Shown here: piece after piece, positions 36,797 to 53,371 of the stretch
Numbering within the stretch: position 1 is the stretch's first letter
Layout of the letters: each line of letters starts with the position of its first letter
DNA from: Bacteroidales bacterium
Lineage (GTDB): Bacteria > Bacteroidota > Bacteroidia > Bacteroidales > UBA932
NCBI GenBank assembly: GCA_024401715.1
Contig: JAKSKO010000003.1
Coordinates: 1 to 61,661, forward strand
DNA: 61,661 nt
Direction: 5' to 3'
Program-made: the position numbers and the translations under genes
The notes under the pieces: generated by a model
What the model was told of the DNA's origin: nothing
What the model saw: only the letters and a program-made list of their open reading frames with translations
The model's database searches: none

Positions 36797-38065
36797 AGAA
36801 CTTATCTTTTTACTTCAGAGTCTGTCTCTGAGGGCCACCCGGATAAAGTGGCCGACCAGATTTCCGACGCAATTCTTGATGAATTCCTGCGTCAGGATGA
36901 AAATTCCAAAGTTGCCTGTGAAACTTTCTGCAGCACCGGTATGGTGGTTGTGGGTGGTGAAATCACAAGCGATGCGTATGTAGACGTTCAGAGTACTGTG
37001 CGCCGCGTGATAGACCATATAGGCTATAACAAGGCAGAATATATGTTCGATGCCAAAAGCTGCGGTATCCTAAGCGCCATTCACGAGCAAAGCCCGGACA
37101 TCAATCGCGGCGTGGACCGTGTGAACGAGGATCAGGGAGCCGGAGACCAGGGCATGATGTTCGGTTATGCCTGCAGCGATACAGAGGAGTACATGCCTCT
37201 TCCGCTTTTCCTCTCCCACCGCATCCTGCAGATTCTAAGCAGCATACGCCACGAGAACAGCGGCGTGATGCCATACCTGCGCCCGGATGCCAAAAGCCAG
37301 TTCACAATTGAGTATGACGCCCAGACAAATCAGCCGCTTCGCATCCATACCATTGTCCTTAGCACCCAGCACGACGATTTCGGTGCCGATGAATATATGC
37401 ATCAGAGGATAGAGCAGGACGTGCGCGGCATAGTTATCCCGGCGCTCATCGCCTCCCTTCCTGCCGAAACTTCAGCTCTTTTCCGCAACGACTATATTCT
37501 TCACGTGAACCCTACAGGCAAGTTCGTGATTGGCGGCCCTGCCGGAGACACAGGCCTCACAGGACGCAAGATTATTGTTGATACCTACGGAGGCAAGGGT
37601 GCACACGGCGGCGGAGCGTTCAGCGGCAAGGATCCTTCAAAGGTGGACCGCAGTGCTGCATACGCTGCGCGTTACATTGCCAAGAACATGGTTGCGGCCG
37701 GTATTGCGCGCGAGATGCTGGTGCAGGTGTCTTATGCCATTGGTGTTGCCAAGCCTGTAAGCATATTCGTGAACACCTACGGAACCGCAGCATGCAACGC
37801 CCAAGGCGTCCAGATTTCGGATTCTGAGATTGCCGAAAAGATTTCGCAGCTCTTCGACCTGCGCCCTGCAGCCATCATAGAGCATCTGGGACTGAAAAAC
37901 CCTATCTATGAGGCAACTGCCGCCTACGGTCATGTGGGACGCAAACCTTATATGAGGGAAGTTGAGCTTCTTCGCAAGGGAAAAACCATACGCAAGGAGA
38001 TTCAGTTCTTCGGCTGGGAGCTCCTGGATCGCGTGGATGACATACGCGAAGCCTTCGGAATGTAA
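36794..38065 (+). CDS. metK: S-adenosylmethionine synthetase
   Basis: A 423-residue enzyme that starts [29 protein letters not shown]. The methionine/ATP-binding [12 protein letters not shown] motif is near residue 116, and [47 protein letters not shown] carries the P-loop-like GGGAFSGKD hexapeptide region. MetK makes SAM from methionine and ATP. It is transcribed alone from the promoter at 36702-36732 and is probably feedback-regulated by the SAM-II-like element whose 3' end overlaps the start codon. Confidence 0.98.
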
Positions 38066-38087
38066 AATTTTTTCAGCGTTTTTTTCG

Positions 38088-38130
38088 TAAAAAAAAGACC
38101 GGTTCAATAAAGAGCCGGTCTATTTTTATT
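38088..38130. terminator. bidirectional terminator between metK and the left Sus operon
   Basis: The stem AGACCGG/CCGGTCT is flanked by an A-run on the left and TATTTTTATT on the right, fitting both converging transcripts. Confidence 0.85.
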
Positions 38131-38145
38131 AGTGCGGGAGTTGGA

Positions 38146-38943
38146 TTATTCTGCTGCGGTAAAGTTATCAGGGCCATATCCCAAGCTACCTGCACCTACA
38201 TAATACTGCAGATAGATTTCCAGATAGTTATATTCGGGATAAAATACGTTCCACTCTATATAAGAGTCGTCTCCCTGCCATGCGGCAACATCTCTGGCGT
38301 AAACCATGCCATAGCTAGGATGCATGTATCCTGTCTCCATGGTTGTAGCGTGAACATAGTAGAATTCGTCACCCTCGTCGTCTGTCTGTGGGTCGCTGGC
38401 AAGTTCAAAGAACATTCGGCTGCCTCCGCCCCATGCGTCCTGAACGCGATATCTGTTCGGGTCCTGGTCGCAGATCTGAAGTTTGGCATTTTCTGAAGGA
38501 CGGAATACTTTGGAAGGAGTGTAGACACCTGTTGCGACAGTGCTCCAGCTGTAAGCCATAAAGTCTGTGCAAGCAAAGTTGTACTCGCCTTTGCCGTATA
38601 CCATAGCCACGATTGTGTTCTCGCCTTTCATTCCCTCCAGGACGAAATCATAATCCTTATCTACGGCCTTTACCTCGGAACCGTTTGCCTTTACATATGC
38701 TACGAGAGCATCACCTTCCGGAACATTTTCTGTTGGAATGGCGGCAAGCCAGGCCTGCTCTACAACAGGATTGAATGCAAGACGAACTTTCAGGCTGTTG
38801 TCAGAGTCATACTCATCTCCAGGTGCATAAGTATACAATACCACATTGGCCTTGGTGTCCTGCGCCGGCTTAAGTGAAGCTTTGTTACATGCAGTAAGGC
38901 TGAAGATTCCCAGAACTATTGCAATAAATATATTCTTTTTCAT
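38146..38943 (-). CDS. Sus-operon lipoprotein, left locus
   Basis: A 265-residue protein with a lipoprotein signal (MKKNIFIAIVLGIFSLTACNK, lipobox LTAC). The rest is a soluble, aromatic-rich extracellular-type sequence with no recognised domain (YAPGDEYDSDNSLKVRLAFNP, MVYGKGEYNFACTDFMAYSW, QDAWGGGSRMFFELASDPQ). As third gene of a susC-susD unit, it occupies the place of SusE/F-like surface glycan-binding or auxiliary proteins. It is much smaller than, and not visibly similar to, the third gene of the right locus. Function is inferred only from position. The gap to susD is 13 bp. Confidence 0.75.
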   Translation of the reverse strand: MKKNIFIAIVLGIFSLTACNKASLKPAQDTKANVVLYTYAPGDEYDSDNSLKVRLAFNPVVEQAWLAAIPTENVPEGDALVAYVKANGSEVKAVDKDYDFVLEGMKGENTIVAMVYGKGEYNFACTDFMAYSWSTVATGVYTPSKVFRPSENAKLQICDQDPNRYRVQDAWGGGSRMFFELASDPQTDDEGDEFYYVHATTMETGYMHPSYGMVYARDVAAWQGDDSYIEWNVFYPEYNYLEIYLQYYVGAGSLGYGPDNFTAAE

Positions 38944-38956
38944 AATCTATACTCTT

Positions 38957-40612
38957 TTAGAATACATACTCCTGGTCGGCACCTGTTTCGTGTACCGGAG
39001 CAGGGTTATTAGTACAAGCTGAATTGTAGTTGGTCTCTGTCTGTACGATACAAAGGTTCATCCAATCCGGAGTCTTCTCCATATTCCATTTGTATTCCTC
39101 CAGGTGGTTGCTGCCAGGATAGCTGCGGATGATACCTTTGCCGAGACGTTTGATGTCGAATGTGGCGAATCCCTCACCCCAAAGCTCTACGCGACGCTGC
39201 CACCACACTTCGTTTACGAATGGGCCGGACGTCATATCGTAGTAGTTGTCGCGATGGTTGCCATACTCGAACTCTGGGTCACGAAGCTGTGCCCATGCAG
39301 TAAGTTTCTTAACACCCTCTGCCTCGTTCATACGGCCCAAAGCCTCAATCTCAATCAGCTCCATCTCCTCAACTCGCATGAGTGGCACTGCAACGGTGAA
39401 TGCTGCGTACTGGTTTGCGTGCTCACCGTCTTTAGGACGGAATTTCAGCTCCAGTCCGCCAACAACTCCTGTTGCACTGGCTTTTGCAGTAACAAGGAGA
39501 CCTTCAGGAACGTCAGAGTAGTCGGACAGTGCTTTAATTGCGTCAGCTTTACCCATCTCGTCAATTGCAAAGTCCACAAAGCATTTCTTGCGGAAGTCAG
39601 TTGCAGGAATTGTAGAGTAGAGGTGCTGGTCTATTCTCATAGGCTGTCCGTAGTTTGCCGCGTAACCGCACTTAGATTCGGATACCTCTATGATCATCTG
39701 GGAACCCCAGCAAGAGTCGGCATCGTTCTCTATGATATTCTCGTCTGTAGATTTGAATGTGAGAGCGAAAATCCATGCAGAGTTAGGTGTGTTGAAGCCG
39801 TTGTTACGGTCCAGATACTGGGCTTCGTTCATGCTGGTGTAGCCTTCCTGTGCAAGGACAGCGTACTCTTTAGCTTTTTCCCAGTTGCCCATTGTAAGGT
39901 ATGCGCGTGCTTTCAGACCGTATACCACATTCAGGTCCGGTGTATATACGTCTTCGCGAACATAGTCTGCAAGAAACTCCTCGGCCTTATCAAGATCTTC
40001 GAGGATGAACTCGAACATTTTCTCGTTTGTGGCGCGTGGGTTTGCAACCAGGTCTGGAATTTCTGTGGACTCTGTTACGATTGGAACGGATACGGACTCC
40101 AGATTTGCAGTGTATGTCTCCTGTGCGAACATGCGGGCAAGATCCATGTAGAACATCGCACGCATTGCATATGCGATACCTGCACCGCTCACCTTATCTT
40201 CAGAAGGACTTGCTTTGTATAGAGAGATAACAGTGTTGCAGTTCTTGATCCATCCGTAGTAGTATGTCCAAGGATACTGGCAGTTTGCGTATGCCGGGCC
40301 CAGAGTACGGCTGCAGCTATACCATGAGTTGTACCAGCTGGCATCTTCTATAACGATATCCTGTCCCATCACATCTCTCTGCAGGAAGAAAGAAGGATAG
40401 CCAAAGTCTGGTGGATAGTTGTTAGAACCGCTATAAGTGAAAGAGCCGGCAAGACTGTTTGTGATGGAGTTTACGAAGTTATCGTAAGCGCCTGGAGCAT
40501 TTGATGCCTGTTTGTCGGTAACTGTTGAGCTCTGGGGATCAATGGTCCTGATACAAGAGCTTACAGCTGCAATTACAAGGGCGGCAAGAGTTATTTTAAG
40601 TGTATTTTTCAT
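38957..40612 (-). CDS. RagB/SusD family nutrient-uptake lipoprotein, left locus
   Basis: A 551-residue protein from the ATG at 40612, which is preceded by a good GAGGAAA ribosome site. An in-frame ATG 15 bp upstream lies next to the susC stop. The lipobox is in AVSSCIRT. SusD features are the TPR-rich fold with YYGWIKNCNTVISLYKAS, GIAYAMRAMFYMDLARMFAQ, NPRATNEKMFEFILEDLDKAEEFL, YGLKARAYLTMGNWEKAKEYA, and the C-terminal MRVEEMELIEIEALGRM and WWQRRVELWGEGFATFDIKRLGKG. SusD caps the SusC channel and binds the glycan or peptide ligand. It is paralogous to the right-locus SusD, with many shared block motifs. Confidence 0.95.
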   Translation of the reverse strand: MKNTLKITLAALVIAAVSSCIRTIDPQSSTVTDKQASNAPGAYDNFVNSITNSLAGSFTYSGSNNYPPDFGYPSFFLQRDVMGQDIVIEDASWYNSWYSCSRTLGPAYANCQYPWTYYYGWIKNCNTVISLYKASPSEDKVSGAGIAYAMRAMFYMDLARMFAQETYTANLESVSVPIVTESTEIPDLVANPRATNEKMFEFILEDLDKAEEFLADYVREDVYTPDLNVVYGLKARAYLTMGNWEKAKEYAVLAQEGYTSMNEAQYLDRNNGFNTPNSAWIFALTFKSTDENIIENDADSCWGSQMIIEVSESKCGYAANYGQPMRIDQHLYSTIPATDFRKKCFVDFAIDEMGKADAIKALSDYSDVPEGLLVTAKASATGVVGGLELKFRPKDGEHANQYAAFTVAVPLMRVEEMELIEIEALGRMNEAEGVKKLTAWAQLRDPEFEYGNHRDNYYDMTSGPFVNEVWWQRRVELWGEGFATFDIKRLGKGIIRSYPGSNHLEEYKWNMEKTPDWMNLCIVQTETNYNSACTNNPAPVHETGADQEYVF

Positions 40613-40630
40613 GATTGTTTCCTCCACATT

Positions 40631-43600
40631 TTAGAATGTCAGCTGTACACCACCTGATATTGTACGTACCGGAGAGTATGTAGCCACAGATGTGTTGCCT
40701 GTGAATGAATAACGAGGATCAAGTCCCTGGCGTGCAGACCAGAACCAGAGGTTCTCACCTGCGCAGTAGAAGCGGATGCGCTGAATCTTGATCTTGGATG
40801 TGAGTTTTTCCGGAAGAGTGTAACCAACAGTGAATGACTGGAAGTTCAGGTAGCTGGCGTCTGTAAGGAAGCGGCTTGAAGCTGCAGTTGTATACTGGTC
40901 CAGATACTGCCACCTAGGCACGTTCGAGCTTGCGTTGCTTGGTGTCCATGAATTCAGGTAGTCTTTGTGGAAGTTCCATCCTGCGCTGTTTACAGACTCG
41001 GTTGGAGACATATAGGCTGCATAACGGGAGTCATATACCTTGCCGCCAATCTGATAGTCGAATGTTGCAGATATGTCCACACCATAGAACTGGAATGATG
41101 TTGCAAAACCGCCGAATACCTTAGGCATTGTGCTGCCCTGCTCATATTTGCTGGCTTTCTCGATGCTTGTTGTTGTGCCGGAGAATTTCTTGCCCGGAAC
41201 ATCAATCTTGTTGCTGCTGTTTGCAGGATTCATGTTGCTGAGGTCCTCATCATAATAGTATACGGCCTCACCATGCTCGTTAACGCCGGCATACATGTAT
41301 GTGAAGTAGTTGTTCATGTCACCGCCTTCTTTGAACCACAGACCGTTCTCTGTGAATCCGTCCCTGCCGGAAAGTTTTGTCTCAGGAAGCTTCAGAATCT
41401 TGCCTTTGTTGCTTGCAAGGTTACCTGCAATGTTCCATACAAAATTCCTTGTTCTGATGACGTCTGCAGAGAGAGTGAGCTCAACACCGTAGTTGCAGAT
41501 GTTACCCATGTTGCCATAGTAACCCCTGGTTCCTGAAGACTCCGGAACGGACAGCCAGAACAGCAGGTCCCTGGTCTTCTTGTAGTATGCGTCAACACCA
41601 CCGGTGAGACGGCCCTTGAAGAAGCTGAACTCAACACCTGTGTTGAAGTTTGTGGTAGTCTCCCATGTGATATCTTTGTTGCCGAGACGTGCGAATGTAG
41701 GAGACATTGTGAACTCGCCTGAAGGTTTGATGCTGTAAAGGTCTACGTATGCCCAGTTGCCGATACCGTCGTTACCCTGCTGGCCTACGGAAGCCTTGAA
41801 TTTCAACATGTCCACTGCGTCTGCGTTTGACATGAAGTCCTCTTTGGAGATGATCCATGCACCACCTACAGACCAGAAGTTACCCCACCTCTTCTTCTCG
41901 CTGAAACGTGAAGAACCATCGATACGGTATGAAGCGGAAAGATAGTATTTGTAATCGTAGTTGTACTGTGCGCTTGCGAAGAAGCCTTCAACATTATATG
42001 CGCTGGAAGTTGATGTTGTGGAATCAAGCTTCTTTGCGGCAGCACCAAGCTCCAGAATCTCCGGTGAGAACAAGCCCTGTCCTACGGCTACCAGTGAGTT
42101 GCTTCTTGTATAATAATACTCGTGACCCACCAGTACATTGATGTCGTGTGCGCCGTATGCTTTGGCAAAGGTCAAAGTCTGGATATTGTTGGTTCTGAGG
42201 CTGGTCACGCCCTGTTTGGTGAGCTCGCCCTTAACGCCAACCTTAGGACCGTACAGTGCATTGTCGTACTTGGTTGAATTGCTCTGGCCAAGGACAACGT
42301 TGCTGCTGACGCTAAGTTTCAGCCATGGTGCAAAGTTTACGTCTGCGGTGAATGTACCGTTCAGCTGATAGCCGGTGGTCTTCACAACATTGTAGCGGTT
42401 TGAACCGAATGGGTTACCTGTTGCAAGGAACGGACGTGTGATGCCGTAGTTTGTTGCAGCAACACCGTAGTCATACTGGTCGTTACCGTTGGCATCCTTG
42501 CGGATAGACACATTGCCGTCACCATCCACAACCCTTACGTATACAGGATAGATAGGTGCAATGAATGTGGTATAGTGCATAAGGTTTGTTGAACCCATGG
42601 ATGTGTCCATGTTAGGGTTGGCGGTCTGGTTTGAATTGGTGAAGCCGATGTTAGCTCCCACTTTCAACCATTTCTTTGCCTGATAATCAGCTTTCACACG
42701 TGCAGCAACACGTTTGTAGCCGGAGTAGGCAACGATACCGTCCTCGTCAAGGTAGCTGAGGCTGGTGTAGTAGCTGGCCTTGTCTGTTGAACCGTTCAGG
42801 CTGATGTTGTATTCCTGACGCAGTGCGTTCTTGTAGGCCATTTTGTTCCAGTCGTCGCCCTGTATCCAGTAGTCCTCGCCATTGTAGTTGTGTTTGTAAC
42901 CCGGAGTTGCCTTAGGGTTAAGCTTGCCGTCCAGGCCGATGAGTGTTTCACCCTGAGGTACTGTATATGTCTGGTATGCAAGGTCGCTCAGCATGGTCTT
43001 GTTGGCTGCAAGGTTGGCCTCGGCAGCGCTAAGACCTTTTCCATAATAGTTGTAGTTGTATACCTGTTTGTAGTATGCCTCATAGTATTCGCCAGGGTTG
43101 CGGATGATGTCGTAATCCTGTACCGCTTTTGTATTTGCGCCTACTTTGACGTCAACATTTACGGTTGCGTTGGATGCTTTGCCTTTTTTTGTGGTGATGA
43201 TGATTACACCTGAAGCACCACGCGCACCATACAGAGCTGCAGAAGCAGCGTCCTTGAGTACGGAGATAGACTCGATATCGTTCTGCGGAATGTTGGAAAT
43301 GCTGGCGGAGTATGGTGCACCGTCAACGATGATCAGAGGCTCTGTGTCTGCATAGAGAGAAGACAAACCACGGATGCTGATGCTTCCCGAGCTGGAACCA
43401 GGCTGTCCGCCTGCACCACGCATCTGGAAACCTGCCACGCTACCAACCAGTGCGTTGGTTACGTCAGTTGTCTGGCGTTTTGCCAGCTGTTCTGAGTTTA
43501 CAACCGAAGCGGAACCGGTGAAGGCCTCTTTGGTTGTTGTACCGAACGCAACCACAATGGTCTCGTCCAGCATCTGAGCATCGGCAGACAGGGCTATGTT

Positions 43601-43873
43601 CATAACGCCCGCGCCGTTTACACGTGCCTCCACAGTCTTGTATCCGATAAAAGTGTACACCAGAGTGCTGTTTACGGGAGCGCTTATTGTATAAGCACCG
43701 TCAACGTCCGCAACAGTTCCCTGTGTAGTACCTTTTACCTGAATGGCACATGCGGGAATACCATCGCCAGTGGCGGCATCCGTAACTGTACCTTTGACAG
43801 TCACGTTCTGCGCAGAAGCTGCAAGGGCCACCAGAGAAAGCATCAATGAGAGAAAAAATTTGATTTTCTTCAT
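40631..43873 (-). CDS. SusC/RagA family TonB-linked outer-membrane transporter, left locus
   Basis: A 1080-residue protein. The signal peptide is MKKIKFFLSLMLSLVALAASAQ. The carboxypeptidase-regulatory-like domain follows (VKGTVTDAATGDGIPACAIQVKG to about residue 100). The TonB-box region is LDETIVVAFG, then the plug (about 115-240, with SGSISIRGLSSLYADTEPLIIVDGAPY and the GARGASGVIIITTKKG end). A 22-strand barrel ends VRTISGGVQLTF. No N-terminal signalling extension is present. As the segment is drawn, no promoter reading leftward was found upstream of its ATG, so it may be switched off in this DNA configuration. It is paralogous to the SusC at 44906-48160, including near-identical bases over the first 12 codons. 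Confidence 0.96.
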   Translation of the reverse strand: MKKIKFFLSLMLSLVALAASAQNVTVKGTVTDAATGDGIPACAIQVKGTTQGTVADVDGAYTISAPVNSTLVYTFIGYKTVEARVNGAGVMNIALSADAQMLDETIVVAFGTTTKEAFTGSASVVNSEQLAKRQTTDVTNALVGSVAGFQMRGAGGQPGSSSGSISIRGLSSLYADTEPLIIVDGAPYSASISNIPQNDIESISVLKDAASAALYGARGASGVIIITTKKGKASNATVNVDVKVGANTKAVQDYDIIRNPGEYYEAYYKQVYNYNYYGKGLSAAEANLAANKTMLSDLAYQTYTVPQGETLIGLDGKLNPKATPGYKHNYNGEDYWIQGDDWNKMAYKNALRQEYNISLNGSTDKASYYTSLSYLDEDGIVAYSGYKRVAARVKADYQAKKWLKVGANIGFTNSNQTANPNMDTSMGSTNLMHYTTFIAPIYPVYVRVVDGDGNVSIRKDANGNDQYDYGVAATNYGITRPFLATGNPFGSNRYNVVKTTGYQLNGTFTADVNFAPWLKLSVSSNVVLGQSNSTKYDNALYGPKVGVKGELTKQGVTSLRTNNIQTLTFAKAYGAHDINVLVGHEYYYTRSNSLVAVGQGLFSPEILELGAAAKKLDSTTSTSSAYNVEGFFASAQYNYDYKYYLSASYRIDGSSRFSEKKRWGNFWSVGGAWIISKEDFMSNADAVDMLKFKASVGQQGNDGIGNWAYVDLYSIKPSGEFTMSPTFARLGNKDITWETTTNFNTGVEFSFFKGRLTGGVDAYYKKTRDLLFWLSVPESSGTRGYYGNMGNICNYGVELTLSADVIRTRNFVWNIAGNLASNKGKILKLPETKLSGRDGFTENGLWFKEGGDMNNYFTYMYAGVNEHGEAVYYYDEDLSNMNPANSSNKIDVPGKKFSGTTTSIEKASKYEQGSTMPKVFGGFATSFQFYGVDISATFDYQIGGKVYDSRYAAYMSPTESVNSAGWNFHKDYLNSWTPSNASSNVPRWQYLDQYTTAASSRFLTDASYLNFQSFTVGYTLPEKLTSKIKIQRIRFYCAGENLWFWSARQGLDPRYSFTGNTSVATYSPVRTISGGVQLTF

Positions 43874-43928
43874 AGGTCGATGTTTTTTTTAGGATTAAAC
43901 TTTAATTATTGTCTGTTATGTTTCACAA

Positions 43929-43942
43929 TTAAACGAGGGTTT
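43929..43942 (+). repeat. left inverted repeat (recombination site) of the invertible segment
   Basis: TTAAACGAGGGTTT, the exact reverse complement of 44846-44859. Within it TAAAC-GAGG-GTTTA is a dyad around an asymmetric four-base centre, as expected for a serine-invertase crossover site. It lies 6 bp before the recombinase ATG and 55 bp upstream of the left susC ATG. Confidence 0.8.
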
Positions 43943-43948
43943 ATTATT

Positions 43949-44548
43949 ATGAAGGTTTTTGCTTACATCAGAGTCAGTACAGCTGCACAATCATGCGAAT
44001 CACAGAAATACGAGATTTCGGAATATTGCAGGAAAACGGGAATCAGTGTAAATTCTTGGGTCTGTGAGTCTGTAAGCGGCACAGTGCCAACGGAAAATAG
44101 GCGCCTGGGCCGTGTCATCAAAGGAATGAACTCCGGAGACCTGTTAATTTGCAGCGAAATAAGCCGATTGGGCAGAAATATGCTTATGATTATGGGTGTG
44201 CTTAACGAATGCGCTAAGAAGGGAATCGGAATTCTTACGATCAAGGATAATTTCAACCTCAGCGACAGCATCAACTCCAAAATCATTGCCTTCGCTTTTG
44301 CACTGGCTTCCGAGATTGAAAGAAATCTAATAAGCCAACGCACCAGAGAGGCCCTGGCGGCAAAAAAAGCCGAGGGAGTGAGGCTGGGACGTCCGCCCGG
44401 CCCCTCCGCAACTTACAAACGATTCTGTGAGAACGCGCACGAAATAATGGAGATGCGCGGGAAGGGTATATCCATATGCGCCATAGCAAAGAAGTATCAA
44501 ATGCATGCGAATACCCTGACCCGATATATCAGGGATTCGCACTTATAA
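43949..44548 (+). CDS. serine recombinase / DNA invertase (Mpi/Hin-like)
   Basis: A 199-residue small serine recombinase from the ATG at 43949; the frame extends upstream through the inverted repeat but without homology. The catalytic region is AYIRVST, with Arg8 and nucleophile Ser10. EISRLGRNM has the conserved active-site Arg residues, and ASEIERNLISQRTREALAAKKAEGVRLGRPPG is the long E-helix and linker. The C-terminal helix-turn-helix is GISICAIAKKYQMHANTLTRYI. Size and layout match Bacteroides Mpi and enterobacterial Hin/Gin/Pin invertases rather than large integrases. It sits inside the segment it would invert. Its own promoter was not identified; TATGTTTC at 43917-43924 is a weak candidate. 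Confidence 0.93.
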   Translation: MKVFAYIRVSTAAQSCESQKYEISEYCRKTGISVNSWVCESVSGTVPTENRRLGRVIKGMNSGDLLICSEISRLGRNMLMIMGVLNECAKKGIGILTIKDNFNLSDSINSKIIAFAFALASEIERNLISQRTREALAAKKAEGVRLGRPPGPSATYKRFCENAHEIMEMRGKGISICAIAKKYQMHANTLTRYIRDSHL

Positions 44549-44552
44549 ATTG

Positions 44553-44584
44553 TAAGCAATTTTCATATATTACAGAATTGCTTA
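44553..44584 (+). terminator. hairpin after the recombinase gene
   Basis: TAAGCAATT pairs with AATTGCTTA around a 14-base loop, starting 5 bp past the recombinase stop. The stem is AT-rich and the following run is A-rich on this strand (AAAATG), so it is a weak terminator at best and might instead be a regulatory dyad. Confidence 0.4.
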
Positions 44585-44795
44585 AAATGAATGGCAACCT
44601 GTATGTATAAAGATCAAACTTGTCATGCGAGACAAACTGCAGGATTTGAAAAAATAATTTTAATTAATAATTGTAACCTAAATCCCCTAGGCGACTTACA
44701 GTTTATAATAATTATTTACCTTCTTGCTTTACAGCATATCGCATTTAGGCATAAAAACGGCATTTTAGCCTATTTTAGGGCCTATTTGCCGATAC
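44585..44795. other. AT-rich regulatory stretch inside the invertible segment
   Basis: A 211 bp non-coding stretch. A 76-codon frame (44591-44821) exists but is leucine/isoleucine-rich and of low quality. The part 44745-44790 has repeated TTTTAG/GGC words (TTTAGGCAT, CATTTTAGCC, TATTTTAGGGCC) that could be protein-binding sites just upstream of the promoter. Confidence 0.35.
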
Positions 44796-44826
44796 TTGCA
44801 TATCAAAATAATAATCACTAACTTTG
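44796..44826 (+). promoter_or_regulatory. promoter of the invertible segment, facing the right Sus operon
   Basis: TTG (44796-44798), 20 bp spacer, TAACTTTG (44819-44826), fitting the Bacteroidetes -33/-7 consensus. Transcription would start near 44832, cross the right repeat and enter the susC leader. It is inside the inverted-repeat pair, so inversion would redirect it leftward. Confidence 0.75.
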
Positions 44827-44845
44827 CGCTTCGAGTTTTTGTAAA

Positions 44846-44859
44846 AAACCCTCGTTTAA
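44846..44859 (-). repeat. right inverted repeat (recombination site) of the invertible segment
   Basis: AAACCCTCGTTTAA, the exact reverse complement of the left site. Outside it the sequence TAAAGTTTAACCTAAAA resembles the corresponding part of the left susC leader. Confidence 0.8.
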
Positions 44860-44905
44860 AATAATTATACAATTAATAATAAAGTTTAACCTAAAATCAT
44901 CACTT

Positions 44906-47900
44906 ACGAAGAAAAGCAAATTTTTTCTCTCATTGATGCTTTCACTTGTGACATTGGCACTGAATGCGCAGAATGTTACAGTAAGGGGTACAGTTACCGA
45001 TGCTGCCACCGGTGAGGCTGTTCCTGCAACTGCTATTCAGGTGAAAGGTACTACTACAGGTACTATTGCGGACAATGATGGTGCATACACTATCTCTGCT
45101 CCGGCAAATGCTACCTTGGTTTTCTCCTCTATAGGCTATGAGGCTACAGAGGTTGTGGTTAAGGGTGCCGGTATCATTAACGTGGACCTTACCCCGGATT
45201 CCAAAATGTTGGACGAGACTATCGTTGTGGCGTTCGGTACTTCTACTAGGGAGTCCTTCACCGGTTCTGCAACAGTGGTGAAATCAGACGACATCCAGAA
45301 AGTTCAGGCTACCAACGTAACCCGTGCCCTTGAGGGTATGGTTGCCGGTGTGCAGCTCACCACTTCTTCAGGTTCACTTTCATCATCTCCATCAATCATC
45401 ATCCGCGGTATCGGTTCCATCACAGCCGGTTCATCGCCTCTTTACATTGTTGATGGTGTTCCTTATGACGGTGACCTCAACAATATCAACAATGCCGATA
45501 TCGAGAGCATGACAGTCCTCAAGGATGCCGCTTCAAACGCTCTTTACGGTGCACGTGGTGCCAATGGTGTAATCATGATAACAACCAAGAAGGCAAAACA
45601 GGGCCGCGCCATCGTCACTATAGACGCAAAGGTGGGTGTTAACTCTAAAGCAGCCGTGGAATATGACTACATCACCAATCCGGCCATGTACTATGAGGCT
45701 TATTACGCTGCAAGGTATAACTATTTTACCAATGCTGCCGGCCTCAGCCCTGATGAGGCTTTCCAGCGTGTTGCAAGCACCATCGACGGCCCGGTTAACG
45801 CAGGCGGTCTGGGCTACAGCGTGTACAGCTATCCGGAGGGACAGTATCTTATAGGTTCCAACGGCAAGCTGAATCCTAATGCAACTCTCGGCCGTGTAGT
45901 TGAGTATGACGGCCAGAAATACACTTTGCTTCCTGATAACTGGATGAATTCCGCATACAAGACTTCTATCCGCCAGGAGTATAACATTAACGTTGCCGGT
46001 GGTACTCAGAATGCCACTTTCGTCGGATCCTTCGGTTTCCTGGATAACAACGGTATCATCGAGGGCGAGCATCTCCGCCGTTACACAGCTCGTTTGAAAG
46101 CCGACTATCAGGCAAAGAAATGGCTGAAAGTAGGTGGTAACTTCTCTTACGCAAACTTCAAATGGGACAATGCAAACGGCAGCAGCGAGGGTGACTCCAG
46201 CACAGGTAACATCTTTGCATTCGCAAACTCTGTTGCTCCAATCTATCCTCTCTACATCCGTGACGAGAATGGTGCAATCATGAAGGACGAGCACGGTCTC
46301 AAACGTTACGACTACGGTAACGGCAGAAATGCCGGCATGAGCCGTCCTGTTCAGTCAAACTCCAATGGTCTTCAGGCCGTAACCCTGGATCGCGGTCAGA
46401 GCGAGGGTAACGCATTCAATGGCGTGGGCTTCTTTGATATCACTTTCATCCCAGGCCTCAAATTCACTTTCAATGCAGGTGTTGGCGTTGACGAGACCCG
46501 TTCTACCGATATAAGCAATATGTGGTATGGCCAGTTCGCTACTGATGGCGGTACAATTGAGAAGAGCCATACCAGGGCGTTCTACTATAACCTCCAGCAG
46601 ATTCTCTCTTATGACAAGACATTCGCAGATGTACACCATATCAATGCAATGGTTGGTCATGAGAATTATACACGCATCAACTCCAGCCTGGGTGCATACA
46701 AGAAGAACCTCTTCTCTATGGATGTATTCGAGCTGAACGGTGCCGTTGTTGACGGCCAGTCTGCATCTTCAAGCCGCAGCACATATAACAATGAGGGTTA
46801 TTTCCTTCGTGCGCAGTATGATTGGGCCGAGAAACTGTTTGTGAGTGCATCTTACCGTCGTGACGCTTCTTCAAGGTTCCATCCTGATTACCGTTGGGGT
46901 AACTTCTGGTCTGCAGGTGCCGGTTACCTTATTAATAAAGAGAACTGGTTCAACGCCCAGTGGGTGGACATGTTGAAAATCAAGGCTTCCATCGGTTCAC
47001 AGGGTAACGATAATATCGGAAACTTCCTCTACACAGATACATATTCAGTGCTGAACTCAAACGGCCAGGTTTCTGTAGTGTTCAATAACAAAGGTAACAA
47101 GAAGATTTCCTGGGAGACCAACACAAACTTCAATGCAGGTGTTGATTTCGGCTTCTTCAATGGCCGTCTCAGCGGTAGCATAGAGTATTTCTACCGTAAG
47201 ACCTCTGATATGCTGTTCTGGTTTACAGTACCTCCTTCACTGGGCTATTCAGGTTTCTATGACAACGTGGGTGACATGCGTAACTCTGGTGTCGAGTTTG
47301 CTTTGAGCGGTGACATCATCCGCAAAAAGAACATCAACTGGAATGTTTATCTGAACGGTACACACTACAGCAATAAGATTCTTTACCTCCCTGAGGAGAG
47401 AAAGACCAAAGAGATTGAGGGCTACAAAGGTTACGCAAGCGGTAACAAATTCGTGGGCGAGGGCCTTCCTTTGAACACCTTCCTCATGAAAGAGTATGCC
47501 GGTGTTACAGAAGACGGTAGGTCTTCATGGTACAAAAATGTAACCAAGCCGGTTCTTGATCCGGATGGCAATCCTATGAAAGACAAGGATGGCAATGATG
47601 TTACATATGTGGAGAAAGAGGCAACCACAAGCTACAGCGAGGCTACAGAATATCTCCATTCAGTGCCTACACCTAAGCTCTATGGTGGTTTCGGTACTAC
47701 ATTCGAGGCATATGGTTTCGATTTGTCTCTCGGTTTCACATATTCTATCGGCGGCCAGGCATACGATTCAGGTTATGCAAGCCTCATGGATGTACCGGGC
47801 AGCGCAGTAGGTTACAATATCCACAAGGATATATTCAAGGCATGGACTCCGGAGAACACTTCGTCCAATATCCCAAGATGGCAGGCAAACGACCAGAACG

Positions 47901-48160
47901 TGGTTTCTTCATCAGACCGTTTCCTCACCGATGCAAGCTATCTGAACTTCCAGAGAGCGCAGATTGGATACACCTTCCCTCACAAATGGATGGACAAGGT
48001 ACATATCGGTTCTCTCCGCATCTATGTTACCTGTGACAATATCTGTTATGTTTCTGCGCGTAAAGGTTTCGACCCGCGTCAGAGCTTTAGCGGTGCTACA
48101 AATGATAACAACTGTTCTCCTGTACGCACGGTATCCGGTGGTATCAACATTACATTCTAA
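44906..48160 (+). CDS. SusC/RagA family TonB-linked outer-membrane transporter, right locus
   Basis: A SusC paralog of the left gene. Aligning both leaders shows that the left ATG corresponds here to ACG at 44906, with the next 34 bases differing at one position (GAAGAAAA then CAAATTTTTTCTCTC). From ACG the signal peptide would be complete: (T)KKSKFFLSLMLSLVTLALNAQ. The first conventional starts are TTG 44933 and ATG 44936, which drop the basic n-region. The rest is intact: CarboxypepD_reg-like domain, LDETIVVAFG, plug with PSIIIRGIGSITAGSSPLYIVDGVPY and GARGANGVIMITTKKA, and a barrel ending VRTVSGGINITF. Export may be impaired unless ACG is used or is a sequencing error. Confidence 0.93.
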   Translation, partial: TKKSKFFLSLMLSLVTLALNAQNVTVRGTVTDAATGEAVPATAIQVKGTTTGTIADNDGAYTISAPANATLVFSSIGYEATEVVVKGAGIINVDLTPDSKMLDETIVVAFGTSTRESFTGSATVVKSDDIQKVQATNVTRALEGMVAGVQLTTSSGSLSSSPSIIIRGIGSITAGSSPLYIVDGVPYDGDLNNINNADIESMTVLKDAASNALYGARGANGVIMITTKKAKQGRAIVTIDAKVGVNSKAAVEYDYITNPAMYYEAYYAARYNYFTNAAGLSPDEAFQRVASTIDGPVNAGGLGYSVYSYPEGQYLIGSNGKLNPNATLGRVVEYDGQKYTLLPDNWMNSAYKTSIRQEYNINVAGGTQNATFVGSFGFLDNNGIIEGEHLRRYTARLKADYQAKKWLKVGGNFSYANFKWDNANGSSEGDSSTGNIFAFANSVAPIYPLYIRDENGAIMKDEHGLKRYDYGNGRNAGMSRPVQSNSNGLQAVTLDRGQSEGNAFNGVGFFDITFIPGLKFTFNAGVGVDETRSTDISNMWYGQFATDGGTIEKSHTRAFYYNLQQILSYDKTFADVHHINAMVGHENYTRINSSLGAYKKNLFSMDVFELNGAVVDGQSASSSRSTYNNEGYFLRAQYDWAEKLFVSASYRRDASSRFHPDYRWGNFWSAGAGYLINKENWFNAQWVDMLKIKASIGSQGNDNIGNFLYTDTYSVLNSNGQVSVVFNNKGNKKISWETNTNFNAGVDFGFFNGRLSGSIEYFYRKTSDMLFWFTVPPSLGYSGFYDNVGDMRNSGVEFALSGDIIRKKNINWNVYLNGTHYSNKILYLPEERKTKEIEGYKGYASGNKFVGEGLPLNTFLMKEYAGVTEDGRSSWYKNVTKPVLDPDGNPMKDKDGNDVTYVEKEATTSYSEATEYLHSVPTPKLYGGFGTTFEAYGFDLSLGFTYSIGGQAYDSGYASLMDVPGSAVGYNIHKDIFKAWTPENTSSNIPRWQANDQNVVSSSDRFLTDASYLNFQRAQIGYTFPHKWMDKVHIGSLRIYVTCDNICYVSARKGFDPRQSFSGATNDNNCSPVRTVSGGINITF

Positions 48161-48175
48161 CAAGGAGGTCCACTT

Positions 48176-49843
48176 ATGAAAAAGACAATTATAAATACAC
48201 TTTTGATTTTCGCAGCCCTGGTTGCATCCAGCAGCTGTATCAAGGAAACCTTCCCGGAGGGATCCACTGTAACCTCCAGTCAGGTTGCTGCCTCTTCCGG
48301 CGCTCTGGAGGCTATGCTTAACTCCATTCCTGCGTCCATGGTTACCACAGGAACAGCAGGCTATCTCAGCAAATACAGCCATCACGGAGATTTCGGTATA
48401 GGTGAGATTCACCTTATCACTGAGAACATGCTTGAGGATTTCTGTACTCTTGCAGACAACCCTTACTATAATCGTAACTATTATTGGGGAATGTGTTACG
48501 CACAGGGTCCGACTTCATGGCCATGTGCATATTTCTGGGATTGCTATTATCCTTGGATAAAGACCTGTAACGATATCATTTCCTCTATCCTTGCAGGTGG
48601 TGAGCCAACTGCAACAACAGCAATTATTCTGGGTAAGGCTTATGCATACCGTGCGTCTTTCTATCTTGACCTCGCACGTCTTTACGAGCCTAAGGAGAAC
48701 AAATATACTGATGTAAGCAATGTTCTTGGACTTACCGTTCCTATCATCAATGAGAAGACAACAGAGGCCGAGGCAAAAAACAATCCGCGTGCAACTCATG
48801 AGAAGATGTATGAATTCATCCTTGAGGATCTTACAAATGCGGAGAAATACCTTGCCGATGCTCCAAAAGCGAAGAACGAGCCTGGTCTTGATGCAGTACA
48901 CGGCCTTATGGCACGTCTGTATCTTGAAGAGGGTGCTGCCGGTGTGGAGGGTGCTTATGCAAAGGCATATGAGTATGCCGACATGGTTATCAACTCTGCC
49001 ACAGGCTATTCTCCTCTTACCCAGGCCCAGTGGGAAGATCCTGTAAACGGCTTCAACAACATGGCTTCGCAGAATTCATGGATCTGGGGTATAGGCATTA
49101 CAGCAGAGAATTTCAACAATATCTGTACTTATGCCGCGTTCATCTGTTCTGAGGGACAGTGGGGTTATGCTCCGCTTGTACAGCTTGGTGCGGACAAGAA
49201 TTTCTATGAGTCAATAAGCGATAGCGACTGGCGCAAGCACAGCTGGCTGGATCCTGCTTTCCTGGACTATTACAACTATAAATTCTCCGGCTCGGAGAAG
49301 GATGGCTATGACTTCCTTCACGGTAATGACAATGTCGGCCCTGCGAAAGCATATGAGAGCATCAAATTCCGTCCTGCGGGCGGTGACACCCAGGAGAATA
49401 CCGTGGGCAATGCAACAGACCAGCCGCTTATGCGTGTAGAGGAGATGTATTTCATTGCAGCAGAGGCTCTTGCACAGCAGAATAATAAGCTTGGCGAAGC
49501 GAAAGCCATGCTTGAGAAGCTGATTGTAACCCGCAACCCGAATTATACTTGCAAGGCAAACTCAACTGCTGAATTCCTTGAGGAGATGCTTTTGCAGAAA
49601 CGTATCGAGTTCTGGGGCGAAGGTATACTCATGTACGACTACAAGCGTCTTGATCATGGTATTACCCGTGGTTACAAGGGTACTTTGTGGCCAGCAGATT
49701 TCTGTTTCAACTCTGAGGGCCGTTCTCCACAGTGGAATATCGTAATCACCCGTGCAGAGATTCAGGCAAACAATGGTATCTCGGAGGAGCAGAACAACCC
49801 TGATCCATCTAATTTTACACCGCTTTGGGTTGATAAAGACTAA
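48176..49843 (+). CDS. RagB/SusD family nutrient-uptake lipoprotein, right locus
   Basis: A 555-residue SusD with lipobox in VASSSCIKE. A strong AAGGAGG ribosome site lies 8 bp before the ATG, unusual for this phylum. Shared blocks with the left SusD include CYYPWIKTCNDIISSILAG, GKAYAYRASFYLDLARLYEP, NPRATHEKMYEFILEDLTNAEKYLADAP, VHGLMARLYLEEGAA, MRVEEMYFIAAEALAQ and LLQKRIEFWGEGILMYDYKRLDHGITRGY. It would bind ligand over the adjacent SusC. The gap to susC is 15 bp. Confidence 0.95.
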   Translation: MKKTIINTLLIFAALVASSSCIKETFPEGSTVTSSQVAASSGALEAMLNSIPASMVTTGTAGYLSKYSHHGDFGIGEIHLITENMLEDFCTLADNPYYNRNYYWGMCYAQGPTSWPCAYFWDCYYPWIKTCNDIISSILAGGEPTATTAIILGKAYAYRASFYLDLARLYEPKENKYTDVSNVLGLTVPIINEKTTEAEAKNNPRATHEKMYEFILEDLTNAEKYLADAPKAKNEPGLDAVHGLMARLYLEEGAAGVEGAYAKAYEYADMVINSATGYSPLTQAQWEDPVNGFNNMASQNSWIWGIGITAENFNNICTYAAFICSEGQWGYAPLVQLGADKNFYESISDSDWRKHSWLDPAFLDYYNYKFSGSEKDGYDFLHGNDNVGPAKAYESIKFRPAGGDTQENTVGNATDQPLMRVEEMYFIAAEALAQQNNKLGEAKAMLEKLIVTRNPNYTCKANSTAEFLEEMLLQKRIEFWGEGILMYDYKRLDHGITRGYKGTLWPADFCFNSEGRSPQWNIVITRAEIQANNGISEEQNNPDPSNFTPLWVDKD

Positions 49844-49855
49844 ATTCTATAGGCA

Positions 49856-51730
49856 ATGAAAAATTTATTCAAATATATTGGTATTCTTTGTGTTGCCGGC
49901 CTTGCGGCTTCTTGTGCCAAGGTTGACGACTACAAACCGGCTGACGCTCCCGAGGGCGCGCAGGTATATTTCCCTTCATCGATAAGGACTGCGTATACCT
50001 CATCTTTGGACCTCGAATCCATTGATGTTCCTGTATACCGCATTGCTGACGATGCTGCCGCAGACATCGCAATTGCTGTGTCTGATACAACAAAAGATCA
50101 TCTTTTCTTCCCTGCGGGTGCAAGGCTTACAGCAAAATTCGCTGCAGGAAGCAAACAGACTACAGTTTCAATCCCGGTAAACCACGGCCAACTTACTGCC
50201 GGTTCCGCTTATGCGATTAACCTCACTGTTTCAGAGGAAACTACCATTTATGCGGCTTCAAGCGTAAAAATTGTCCTTACTGTTCCGGAGCCGTGGAATT
50301 ATCTTGGCATGGCAACTATCTGCGATAACCTTGTTGCAGGTTATTACACTTTTGATCCTCTCACTTATGAAGTTCCTTGCTATACAAATGCATTGTATCC
50401 TGGTTCATATTTCCTGAAGAATGCATACACCAGCCTTTATCCGAAGAATGCCCCTGGTGATTATGTTGAGGGCGATACATATTTCAGAGTTGATGTAATT
50501 GACGAGGAACATGTTTATATTCCTTATCAGCAGCTTGGAATGGCATGGTCAGATGGTGCGTTTTCTGTCGTTTCATACATTTCCAAATATTTCAAAATCG
50601 ACGAAGGTATAAACTATGGCAAAATAGAGAATGGTGTTATCAAGTTCGCTCCCAAGACAATCTTGATTTCGGAAGCAAACTATAACAATGGCGCCTTCTA
50701 TCAAACTAACTCCAGTGGCAAGTTTGCAATTGCTCTTCCTGGCGCAGCTCTTACCGATTACACAATAGGCATAGCTTACGGTGGTATGCAGGTTTCACCT
50801 TCAGGTGACGCTGCCCTTATCGTTAACTTCACTTCCGAGGCTGACGCAGTGTCTGCCAAATATGCCCTTGCCAAAGACGGTGACGCAGAGGAACTTATTG
50901 CTGCTGTTCTGGCAGGTGAGGAAGATGGTGATGTTACATTCGTTGAGGGTGTTGCAAGTGATATTATCTGGGATCTGGAGCCGGGTATCTATACTGTGGT
51001 TGCAGTTCCTTGCGATGCTGACGGTGAGCTTAAGGCCGACTATGCGGCATCTGCAAAGATTAGGTTCAACGGTCTCGCTCCATCTTCATTCGAATTGAAA
51101 CTTGGTGTATACAGTTATACTAATGATGCGGGAACATTTTCTTTGACCTTCATGACAAATCCCGAAGATCCTACTGACTACCTTGTAAAGAATCCTTCCG
51201 GCCTTCCTGATGGCAGCCAGTGGCATCTGACTCTTGACGAGGCTGCAAGGACTCTTACTTGCGAGGGTCTGGAGCTTGGCTACGAGGAGTATGAGAATCA
51301 GTTCGGATGGGGATGGATATATGATTGGTACAACCAGGCTTATGGATATGCATATGGCTACCTATCTATCATGGAAGATATTAATTCCGAGGACGGTGAT
51401 GCTCCGCTTGTATTCACCCTTGACGATTCAGGTTACGTAACAGGAATCCAGAACGTTAAGTTTGGAGCTTTTGTTTACCAAGCAGAGTCTTTGAATAATA
51501 TAACTGGTCTTCTTGGTTGGAGTCCCTATTCATTCAACAATGATACGGAATTCACATACGAGGGCGTTGCAACAGCTTCTGTAAAGGCACAGAACCTTGT
51601 TGAGAATCGTCCAATCCAAGAATTCTCCAAATCATTTACTCAGGCTAAGACCATGTCTTCCGCTAAAATTGCCGGCAAGTCACGCAAGGCAGTTAGCCAA
51701 AGTATCAAAGAGGATCTTATGAGATTCTAG
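49856..51730 (+). CDS. Sus-operon surface lipoprotein, right locus
   Basis: A 624-residue protein with lipobox AASCAKV (Cys near residue 20). It appears to be a chain of beta-sandwich modules: an Ig-like N-terminal part (about 35-140, ending KIVLTVPEPW) with the SIPVNHGQLTAGSAYAINLTV pattern, a middle domain (about 145-280) rich in Tyr/Trp, a second Ig-like module (about 285-400), and a C-terminal domain with GWGWIYDWYNQAYGYAYGYLS. Aromatic clusters suggest ligand binding at the cell surface, in the manner of SusE/F or SGBPs. It ends the operon before a strong terminator. It has no obvious similarity to the left locus lipoprotein. Confidence 0.8.
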   Translation: MKNLFKYIGILCVAGLAASCAKVDDYKPADAPEGAQVYFPSSIRTAYTSSLDLESIDVPVYRIADDAAADIAIAVSDTTKDHLFFPAGARLTAKFAAGSKQTTVSIPVNHGQLTAGSAYAINLTVSEETTIYAASSVKIVLTVPEPWNYLGMATICDNLVAGYYTFDPLTYEVPCYTNALYPGSYFLKNAYTSLYPKNAPGDYVEGDTYFRVDVIDEEHVYIPYQQLGMAWSDGAFSVVSYISKYFKIDEGINYGKIENGVIKFAPKTILISEANYNNGAFYQTNSSGKFAIALPGAALTDYTIGIAYGGMQVSPSGDAALIVNFTSEADAVSAKYALAKDGDAEELIAAVLAGEEDGDVTFVEGVASDIIWDLEPGIYTVVAVPCDADGELKADYAASAKIRFNGLAPSSFELKLGVYSYTNDAGTFSLTFMTNPEDPTDYLVKNPSGLPDGSQWHLTLDEAARTLTCEGLELGYEEYENQFGWGWIYDWYNQAYGYAYGYLSIMEDINSEDGDAPLVFTLDDSGYVTGIQNVKFGAFVYQAESLNNITGLLGWSPYSFNNDTEFTYEGVATASVKAQNLVENRPIQEFSKSFTQAKTMSSAKIAGKSRKAVSQSIKEDLMRF

Positions 51731-51745
51731 ACTTCCATACATGCG

Positions 51746-51784
51746 AAAAAAAGGCGGCCCGATGCAAGGGCCGCCTTTTTTCTA
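51746..51784. terminator. strong bidirectional terminator
   Basis: AAAAAAGGCGGCCC-GATGCAA-GGGCCGCCTTTTTT is a perfect GC-rich stem with A- and T-runs, between the right Sus operon and the convergent mannonate operon. Confidence 0.95.
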
Positions 51785-53371
51785 TCTGGCGCTGGTGTAT
51801 TTGTGAAGGGTGGCGCGCACGGCACCGGGTCCTGCATAAAGCTCTTTCACCATGGCCTCTATCTTCTCTCCCACCCCTGCCTGGTACAGGTCCAGTCCGA
51901 ATACATCCTTCCTGGTGTACAGCTGTCTCAGGCAGCTGAAGTCCTGGCCTTCCTTTCCAAGTTCCAGCCCTGCAACAATAGGCTGAAGCTCTGCAAGAAG
52001 AGGGTCTGAAGAAAGCTCGAAGGCTTCGCCCTTGTCGTCCAGGCCTTTCAGATAGCGTGCATAGCCTGCAAGGGTTAGTGGGATAAGCACCAGATTATCC
52101 ATGTCCAGGCCTCGTGCAAGGTATTTCTTTATGGTTTCACCAAAGCGTATTGAAAGTTTCTGCGAGGTGTCTGTTGCAATGCGCTGCGGTGCGTCCGGCA
52201 TGAAAGGGTTTGGAAGGCGGCGGTTGATTACCGTGCCTATGAACTCGTACGGGTTAAGCACTCCGGGATCTGTTACCACAGGCATGGCCTCCATATAGCC
52301 TATCTTCTGGATGAAGGCGCGCAGGTCCTCATCGGCCATCTCGGCGGAAATGAGGGTGTAGCCCAGCATGCAGCCGTATATGGACATTGCGGTGTGCAGA
52401 GGGTTCAGGCAGGTTGTAACCTTCATGGTTTCCACCTGATCCACTGTCTGGCGTGTGGTGTACAGTGCGCCGCCAAGCTCCAGTGGAGGGCGTCCGTTTG
52501 TATACTTGTCCTCTACCACCAGATATTGCACCTCCTCTGCGTTCACGAAAGGTGCGGTGAAGGTCTTTTTCTCTGTGATGATGGTCTGATTGTCCTCGAA
52601 TCCGTCCTCGGCAAGAATTTTCTGCACTTTCTCGTGAGGGCGCGGGGTAATCTTGTCTATCATGGACCAAGGATATGTAACCTTGCTCTCGTCCTGGAGA
52701 TAGTCCAGGAACTGTGCAGGCACAAGGCCGGCTTCCACCCATGCCTTTGCATAGGACAGAACTCCGTTCTTCACCTTGTCTCCGTTGTGGCTGCAGTTGT
52801 CTGTGCTCTGGAGGGTGAGAGGGAGCTGCCCCGCGTTGAACCTTTCAAGCATCAGGGCGCACAGCTTGCCCATGGCGAAAACCGGACACAGGCCGCGCTC
52901 CAGGTCTGCCGGAGCAACGCCGTAGCCTTTTTCGGTGATTGTGAAGGTGACCATCTGCAGGCTTGGTGCACGGAAGATTTCGCACAGCCTTGCCCAGTCG
53001 TCGGCAAACTGCGGGTCTGCCTTAAGGCTTTCGGTTACGGATGCAATCACTTTTTTCTCTATGGTGCCGCTGCTTTGCAGGCTTACCAGAAGTGAGAGGT
53101 TGTTGTATGGGCGGTATGCCTTGTCTATGATTTCATAATCGAAACTCTCGGCCACGATTACGCCGCGGTCATACCGGCCGCTGTTCAGGGCGTCGTTCAG
53201 GATGGCTGCAGGGAAGGCGCGGAAGATATTGCCTGCGCCGAAGTGTACCCATGTTGGCTGGCGGTGAGTTTTTTCGGCCACGGCCGCAATGTTGAACTTA
53301 GGCAGTTCATAACCCTTTGCTTCCCACGCACTTGCGTCAAAGCCGGGCGTTAGTATATCGTTCAGTTTCAT
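51782..53371 (-). CDS. uxuB: mannitol dehydrogenase family protein, probable fructuronate reductase
   Basis: A 529-residue polyol-type dehydrogenase. The N-terminal WVHFGAGNIFRAF is the NAD-binding motif of the family. Later blocks are ITEKGYG, STDNCSHNGDKVKNGVLSYA, YPWSMIDKITPRPHEKV (catalytic Lys in DKITPR) and LNPLHTAMSIYG. It follows mannonate dehydratase by 12 bp, so D-fructuronate to D-mannonate (UxuB) is the natural role. Mannitol or tagaturonate dehydrogenase are alternatives by motif alone. It works in the cytoplasm in hexuronate breakdown. Confidence 0.88.
   Translation of the reverse strand: MKLNDILTPGFDASAWEAKGYELPKFNIAAVAEKTHRQPTWVHFGAGNIFRAFPAAILNDALNSGRYDRGVIVAESFDYEIIDKAYRPYNNLSLLVSLQSSGTIEKKVIASVTESLKADPQFADDWARLCEIFRAPSLQMVTFTITEKGYGVAPADLERGLCPVFAMGKLCALMLERFNAGQLPLTLQSTDNCSHNGDKVKNGVLSYAKAWVEAGLVPAQFLDYLQDESKVTYPWSMIDKITPRPHEKVQKILAEDGFEDNQTIITEKKTFTAPFVNAEEVQYLVVEDKYTNGRPPLELGGALYTTRQTVDQVETMKVTTCLNPLHTAMSIYGCMLGYTLISAEMADEDLRAFIQKIGYMEAMPVVTDPGVLNPYEFIGTVINRRLPNPFMPDAPQRIATDTSQKLSIRFGETIKKYLARGLDMDNLVLIPLTLAGYARYLKGLDDKGEAFELSSDPLLAELQPIVAGLELGKEGQDFSCLRQLYTRKDVFGLDLYQAGVGEKIEAMVKELYAGPGAVRATLHKYTSAR

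Follow-up and report, generated by a model that had tools for sequence, protein, structure and literature searches.

Anatomy of the locus

The window analyzed here is the whole of contig JAKSKO010000003.1 (61,661 bp) from the assembly of a Bacteroidales bacterium (GCA_024401715.1; 79 contigs, 1.98 Mb, about 90% complete). Between two divergent susC-susD operons, it holds a short segment in which a serine recombinase gene and an outward promoter are enclosed by an inverted repeat. Judged from its sequence and that of its relatives, the segment is proposed, with a probability of about 0.83, to be a self-contained either/or promoter switch that is Hin-like in layout and related to Mpi. The features of the locus are given below, where the lipoprotein calls for both third genes were made by eye from the N-terminal signal.

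43929-43942, plus strand: left recombination site, a 14-bp repeat with the dyad core AAACG-AG-GGTTT at 43931-43942
44846-44859, minus strand: right recombination site, dyad core at 44846-44857, central dinucleotide AG on the minus strand, as in the left site
43949-44548, plus strand: serine recombinase of 199 amino acids, starting 6 bp past the left repeat; PF00239 Resolvase domain, E=1.7e-30
44795-44826, plus strand: single predicted outward promoter, CTTG-N20-TAACTTTG, directed at the right operon in the orientation drawn; position conserved in relatives
43874-43930, minus strand: left leader, 57 bp from core to ATG, without a leftward TAnnTTTG
44858-44905, plus strand: right leader, 48 bp from core to the ACG start position
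40631-43873, minus strand: left SusC/RagA-family TonB-linked receptor, ATG start at 43873; TIGR04056, 745.9 bits
38957-40627, minus strand: left SusD-family gene; PF14322
38146-38943, minus strand: third gene of the left operon, predicted lipoprotein of 265 amino acids, N-terminus ...LTAC; no Pfam match
44906-48160, plus strand: right SusC/RagA-family receptor, ACG instead of ATG at the expected start; TIGR04056, 761.9 bits
48176-49843, plus strand: right SusD-family gene; PF14322 and PF07980
49856-51730, plus strand: third gene of the right operon, predicted lipoprotein of 624 amino acids, N-terminus ...AASC; no Pfam match

A preliminary description of the locus had reported a perfect 14-bp inverted repeat around a segment of about 0.9 kb. 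This was confirmed, with 14/14 matches between TTAAACGAGGGTTT at 43929-43942 and its complement at 44846-44859. An inverted repeat of at least 14 bp arose in 3 of 1,000 Markov shuffles of the 1,032-bp intergenic stretch; the bare repeat is only moderately surprising and provides modest evidence, while the strong evidence comes from the relatives. Throughout the assembly, no copy of the 14-bp site with up to one mismatch was found beyond the pair.

The outward promoter is of the Bacteroidota type and consists of TTG at 44796-44798, a 20-bp spacer, and TAACTTTG at 44819-44826. It ends 19 bp short of the right repeat, in agreement with the single promoter about 20 bp inside this repeat that had been proposed. 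The TAnnTTTG motif was absent from the minus strand in 43600-45200, as had been claimed for the left operon, and from both leaders of the window. As assembled, the -7 box is separated from the right start position by 79 bp, and by coordinates it would be 88 bp from the left one after inversion; nearly equal distances had been predicted earlier. Inverted repeats enclosing a promoter, a criterion for invertons, were thus present in the window, and they were also found in its relatives.

The layout of two divergent susC-susD-lipoprotein operons stood as described, but their completeness did not, since the right susC lacks an intact start. The start position reads ATGAAGAAA in the left susC and ACGAAGAAA (44906-44908) in the right susC, where the nearest in-frame ATG, GTG, or TTG lies 27 bp downstream, within the signal peptide. 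No other ACG start was seen among those leaders of relatives in which the first start is not a nearby ATG, some of which end before the start. The ACG may be due to an error in the assembly or to a loss, or it may be used as a weak start, and it does not change the reading of the switch.

Recurrence in related genomes

Relatives were collected with the window recombinase as the query (P0003 in the tests), and they are numbered as loci (L) or genomes (G). Matches were found in 57 of 200 genus genomes at 1e-20, and the recombinase or a homologue was found in 126 of 400 genus genomes at 1e-30. The window's own genome and more distant, Mpi-like homologues are part of each of these counts. The relatives in the named genome collection are Bacteroidales metagenome genomes, several of which are called Cryptobacteroides. 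A total of 114 loci were pooled, including 53 from this collection, 60 further loci, and the window, and 88 unique loci were left after 26 copies had been dropped by recombinase sequence. These were divided into a closer family of 72 loci with at least 50% recombinase identity and a second family of 16 sampled loci below 50%.

A locus was considered to have two operons when an outward-pointing susC match was present within 2.5 kb on both sides. The arrangement recurs in related genomes, a check that the preliminary description had named: divergent susC genes flank the recombinase on both sides in 48 of the 72 closer-family loci, and among the remaining 24, a contig end lies within 2.5 kb in 16. 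In the second family, two divergent susC genes were found in one of the 16 loci (L155). Additionally, in 10 of 53 loci the contig breaks off no more than 500 bp from the recombinase, compared to 2.0 expected. Mixed orientations in the sample would cause such breaks, as would repeated leader sequences.

Recombination cores and promoters among relatives

The repeats contain a dyad core of the form AAACG-NN-CGTTT. When up to two mismatches were allowed, 45 of the 48 two-susC loci had this core on both sides, and the totals for the left and the right side were 46 and 47. In 100 Markov simulations of the same stretches, cores on both sides were found in a mean of 2.43 loci and in eight at most. Small serine recombinases, such as Hin and the resolvases, join strands through a two-base overlap at the centre of the dyad. 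This central dinucleotide was equal in 45 of 45 pairs when cores were picked by mutual identity, a choice that favours agreement, and in 44 of 45 when they were picked by consensus alone, which treats each side independently; 25% was expected. Across the 45 pairs the dinucleotides were AG (16), GG (13), GT (7), TC (6), GA (2), and AC (1), none of which is self-complementary. Equal and directional centres are what inversion requires, because a serine recombinase joins its sites through the two-base overlap, and the loci accordingly carry the paired dyad sites with an identical, non-self-complementary centre by which a small serine recombinase is recognized. Cores with up to one mismatch were also denser in closer-family loci than in those of the Mpi-type family (1.62 versus 0.48 per 10 kb).

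Promoters were scored against TTTG-N16-21-TAnnTTTG, with a maximum of 10, at six places in 45 loci. An outward match with a score of 9 to 10 was present inside the right core, beyond the end of the recombinase, in 29 of the 45 loci, whereas the five other places yielded 0, 2, 3, 2, and 1. A score of at least 8 was reached in 38 loci, and in 29 of these 38 the -7 box ends 16 to 21 bp from the core. In Bacteroides intestinalis, some invertible capsule promoters overlap with a repeat, and their transcription begins approximately within it (PMC8375218), which fits this spacing. Leaders outside the cores carried the motif in 2 and 3 of the 45 loci, where shuffles predicted 2.0 and 1.4. A sub-lineage that includes L053, L075, and L079-L081 has a weaker variant of the -7 box.

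Cassette orientation and operon boundaries

Up to 20 kb was fetched on each side of 43 loci, several of which were shortened by contig ends and six of which have no divergent susC pair (G138, G302, G330, G351, G386, and G390). Flanks were considered orthologous when a colinear chain of 1,200 bp was found beyond about 6 kb. By this definition, both outer flanks were orthologous in 45 pairs, which are not independent as they were drawn from 21 loci, and the cassette was inverted in 25 pairs and in the same orientation in 20. A two-colouring of the orientations was free of conflict in five groups (5:4, 3:2, 2:1, 2:0, and 2:0). In the first group G351 is ambiguous, as shorter matches of the other kind are present in its pairs as well, and the pair G138/G227 has an additional opposite-side match of 2044. 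In the largest group both orientations are scattered over the recombinase tree, with at least three changes counted by eye. Both orientations, a further criterion for invertons, were thus found between species at three orthologous chromosomal positions. Among pairs that matched on one flank only (threshold 2000), 30 had the same and 21 the opposite orientation. The window locus contributes one-flank evidence only, where the left flank of G386 and the right flank of G379 both match its left flank. As comparisons between species, the orientation data show repeated inversion over evolution and not the rate of switching in a cell line.

Homologous operons of at least 74% identity were found on opposite sides of the recombinase in eight pairs. 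In three of these (G066/G341, G236/G245, and G155/G164), the homology starts 1 to 9 bp inside the core, and in two same-side pairs it extends 46 to 85 bp into the cassette. For G236/G122 and G236/G245, the operon in common is found on opposite sides of the recombinase together with the adjoining chromosome, as expected from a simple inversion. In G155/G164, a susC operon with 89% identity is on the right of the recombinase in G164 (L128) and on the left in G155 (L145). Its homology begins 9 bp inside the core in each of the two genomes, and the outer flanks keep their sides. Another event is needed for such a change, for example an inversion of the whole block or a replacement of the operon. 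An operon that is 87% identical likewise changes side in G066/G341, starting 1 bp inside the core, where the comparison covers only one outer flank. No pair of loci was found with both operons swapped at high identity, the best being the window and L050 at about 65-66%.

Recombinase family and known inversion systems

The preliminary description had placed a Mpi/Hin-like serine recombinase within the segment, and this assignment held. Besides the PF00239 domain, the catalytic Ser10 could be aligned, where YIRVST corresponds to YVRVST of a DNA-invertase of known structure (4m6f). The Mpi equivalog NF009949, the nearest named family, has a cut-off of 272 bits; the window protein scores below it (243.3), as do all five of the closer relatives tested (247.9-268.6), while all four of the second-family proteins tested pass (304.8-343 bits). 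In the recombinase tree, the distant proteins of less than 50% identity form a separate clade with full support, except for the long-branched L085, which is found among the closer ones. By score and tree, the window recombinase is related to, but outside, the Mpi clade, that is, the clade whose tested members pass the cut-off. A scan of a viral contig collection with the recombinase yielded no relative.

The Hin system places its recombinase gene inside the invertible segment beside one site and an outward target promoter at the other end. This promoter serves one operon, so that the switch is on/off, and exclusion is exerted by a repressor. The locus resembles the Hin/fljBA system of Salmonella (reviewed in PMC11868660) in the small serine recombinase within the segment, the outward promoter at the opposite end, and the short dyad sites. 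It differs in that a second operon lies behind the recombinase-side site, so that the promoter would serve either side. The Hin-type criterion of a recombinase gene and a target promoter at opposite ends inside the segment applies to the window. The contrast drawn earlier with known switches, in which the recombinase was said usually to act from outside, was overstated: the position inside is the Hin layout, and one invertible promoter for S-layer protein diversity has a precedent in Campylobacter fetus.

In C. fetus, the sapA promoter serves alternative genes. Its segment is larger and is not known to have a small serine recombinase within, and inversion is largely RecA-dependent through homologous gene ends. 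The likeness consists in one invertible promoter on a single segment for the diversity of a surface protein, the S-layer (Dworkin and Blaser 1996, as cited in PMC4902306), and homologous gene ends exist here too. In contrast, the present segment is smaller and has a small serine recombinase inside.

With Mpi, the locus shares its nearest named family as well as the half-site type, since the Bacteroides fragilis repeat ARACGTTCGTN fits AAACG-NN-CGTTT with a TT centre, and promoters of the TAnnTTTG type (PMC4747536, PMC8375218). Mpi homologues are also present in B. intestinalis (PMC8375218). In contrast to Mpi, the enzyme here lies inside its only recognized pair of sites, scores below the cut-off and outside the clade, and has a centre other than TT. 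A Mpi-like regulon of many distant sites in the same genome was considered and is ruled against by the lack of any further site with up to one mismatch in the approximately 90% complete assembly.

Tsr0667 of B. fragilis is a tyrosine recombinase. It acts on three shufflon-type clusters and nine other regions (PMC4747536), and the system resembles the present locus in that SusC/SusD family receptors of a Bacteroidales species are varied through DNA inversion. Here, however, a serine recombinase would act at two sites only in a single simple inversion, and the locus does not qualify as a shufflon. Local invertase genes that adjoin TTTG/TAnnTTTG invertible promoters were described in Bacteroidales by Yan et al. 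2022 (PMC8748976), although in those systems, as described there, the invertible region is downstream of the invertase gene and the regulated gene is on one side.

Hence, SusC/SusD phase variation, Mpi-type sites, TAnnTTTG invertible promoters, and recombinases inside the segment are each already known singly (PMC4747536, PMC8375218, PMC8748976, PMC11868660). The literature search returned no paper on Cryptobacteroides with inversion and a recombinase. Among the matches listed, no description was found of a serine-recombinase cassette between divergent SusC/SusD operons or of a genus-wide family of such cassettes, where subscription journals were mostly outside the search, and a search for the motifs returned only unrelated papers among the matches listed.

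Proposed mechanism and alternative explanations

In the proposed mechanism, the recombinase would bind as dimers to the two dyad cores, cut at the central dinucleotide AG, and invert the roughly 915 bp between the cores. The single promoter, 19 bp inside the right core, would then drive either the right operon through the 48-bp leader or the left operon through the 57-bp leader, and the cell would display one of two nutrient receptors, switching reversibly. The inversion put forward in the preliminary description is supported by matched cores in 45 of 48 loci, the fixed promoter in 29 of 45, and opposite orientations at orthologous positions. Its either/or character, as opposed to on/off, is supported by the anatomy, since there is one promoter, neither window leader has a TAnnTTTG, and the starts are 48 and 57 bp from the cores. 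Beyond the observed anatomy, conservation, matched sites, and opposite orientations at orthologous loci of different species, we infer catalysis by the recombinase, reversibility within one strain, and silence of the operon that faces away.

Several observations weigh against this proposal. Eight of the 72 closer-family loci have no divergent susC pair despite at least 2.5 kb on each side, and in 3 of the 48 two-susC loci one core was not found. With agreement at just 8 of 12 bases, the paired cores of L058 and L147 may be due to chance, and among 110 core-like words with up to one mismatch, taken at any place in all 72 loci, four have a self-complementary centre. Shuffles of the T-rich right stretch reach the promoter score in 14.8% of cases, equivalent to about 6.7 of the 45 loci, and the excess of promoters is therefore real, but some of the matches are meaningless. 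A high motif score for a promoter of the recombinase itself was found in just one of the 45 loci. The orientation comparisons were all made between species and had no shuffled control. In five of the eight opposite-side pairs the homology starts off the core, four of them 9 to 87 bp outside and one, G015/G204, 159 bp inside. G204 (L137) has a promoter-like sequence on that side too; it is an exception to the single promoter and to the either/or character, as the second sequence faces the left operon and both operons might be on at once. Finally, the right susC of the window, which has no ATG, is the one that faces the promoter, a poor fit with its being expressed.

An ordinary on/off switch for one operon, with the other operon served by its own promoter that the motif missed and without mutual exclusion, is unlikely. 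Promoters were judged by motif alone, L137 seemingly has one at each end, and the eight loci without a divergent pair would suit this explanation. On the other hand, two divergent susC genes are kept in 48 of 72 loci, the outer leaders carry the motif at about shuffle level, and in most loci both genes lie a short and similar distance from the cores. It is also quite unlikely that the switch is stuck or decaying in this strain, with an inherited cassette and one dying operon. The missing start codon at 44906-44908 would point in this direction, but the right susC frame is otherwise uninterrupted, as are the susD and the third gene of that operon, the repeats are identical, the recombinase is open, and the assembly, being metagenomic, may be wrong at a single base.

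The remaining alternative attributes the flipping, now or formerly, to RecA-dependent homologous recombination between the inverted susC 5' ends, where the recombinase would be incidental. The 5' ends of the two window susC genes form an inverted repeat of 378 nucleotides with 71% identity, in some relatives the arms are identical over 63 to 87 bp, which takes them across the leader as far as the susC start, and leaders are more alike within than between loci (0.70 versus 0.55, with leaders shared within a genome uncontrolled). These features are set against the agreement of the cores in their central dinucleotide, the three opposite-side homologies that begin 1 to 9 bp inside the core, and the retention of the recombinase in the segment, where an internal stop is marked in only two among the matches listed from the genus genomes. 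As the sole cause, RecA is very improbable. Within the preferred either/or promoter switch, RecA may provide an additional route by way of the similar susC ends, which could explain the greater likeness of leaders within loci.

A broader extension of the promoter switch is possible but doubtful: the cassette could be a genus-wide expression socket, where operons plug in on either side and the promoter turns between them. The operons that change side in G155/G164 and G066/G341, with a boundary near the core, form the basis of this suggestion. Tentatively, operons may be exchanged over evolution, being gained, lost, or moved to the other side of the cassette, where one boundary of the exchange would be the recombination core, and the central dinucleotide would be an address that separates the site pairs of different cassettes.

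If the proposed mechanism is true, one gut Bacteroidales genus has a compact turnstile that makes two nutrient receptors mutually exclusive with no repressor or distant master enzyme. SusC-type proteins mediate nutrient uptake and are surface-exposed, reachable by phages and the host, and the choice of receptor would therefore divide a population into two types that differ in foraging or resistance. The small size of the cassette would also allow its use as a two-way genetic switch in Bacteroidales, where the natural variation of the central dinucleotide may already provide orthogonal pairs of sites.

Other elements and variant cassettes

A scan of 43800-45000 for sigma-70 promoters and terminators gave five promoter-like matches, compared to 3.2 in shuffles, and no terminator, and it was set aside. 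An Rfam search of 38000-52000 gave no match. The genome of the window encodes a second small serine recombinase (G000 contig C79, 12165-12773; L005), which is 33% identical and had no NCBIfam match at 1e-20.

Some relatives have larger cassettes. L134 and L138 carry an extra gene of about 326 amino acids, which is inserted after the left site and ahead of the recombinase and is encoded on the opposite strand, and the L134 copy was identified as a PD-(D/E)XK nuclease family transposase (PF12784). L124 also has a large frame at the same place, and L052 has a different one. The cassettes of L079, L080, and L081 are about 99% identical, compared to 91-93% for their right flanks. The left operon of L079 is a different one, and homology between L079 and L081 ends close to the susC start.
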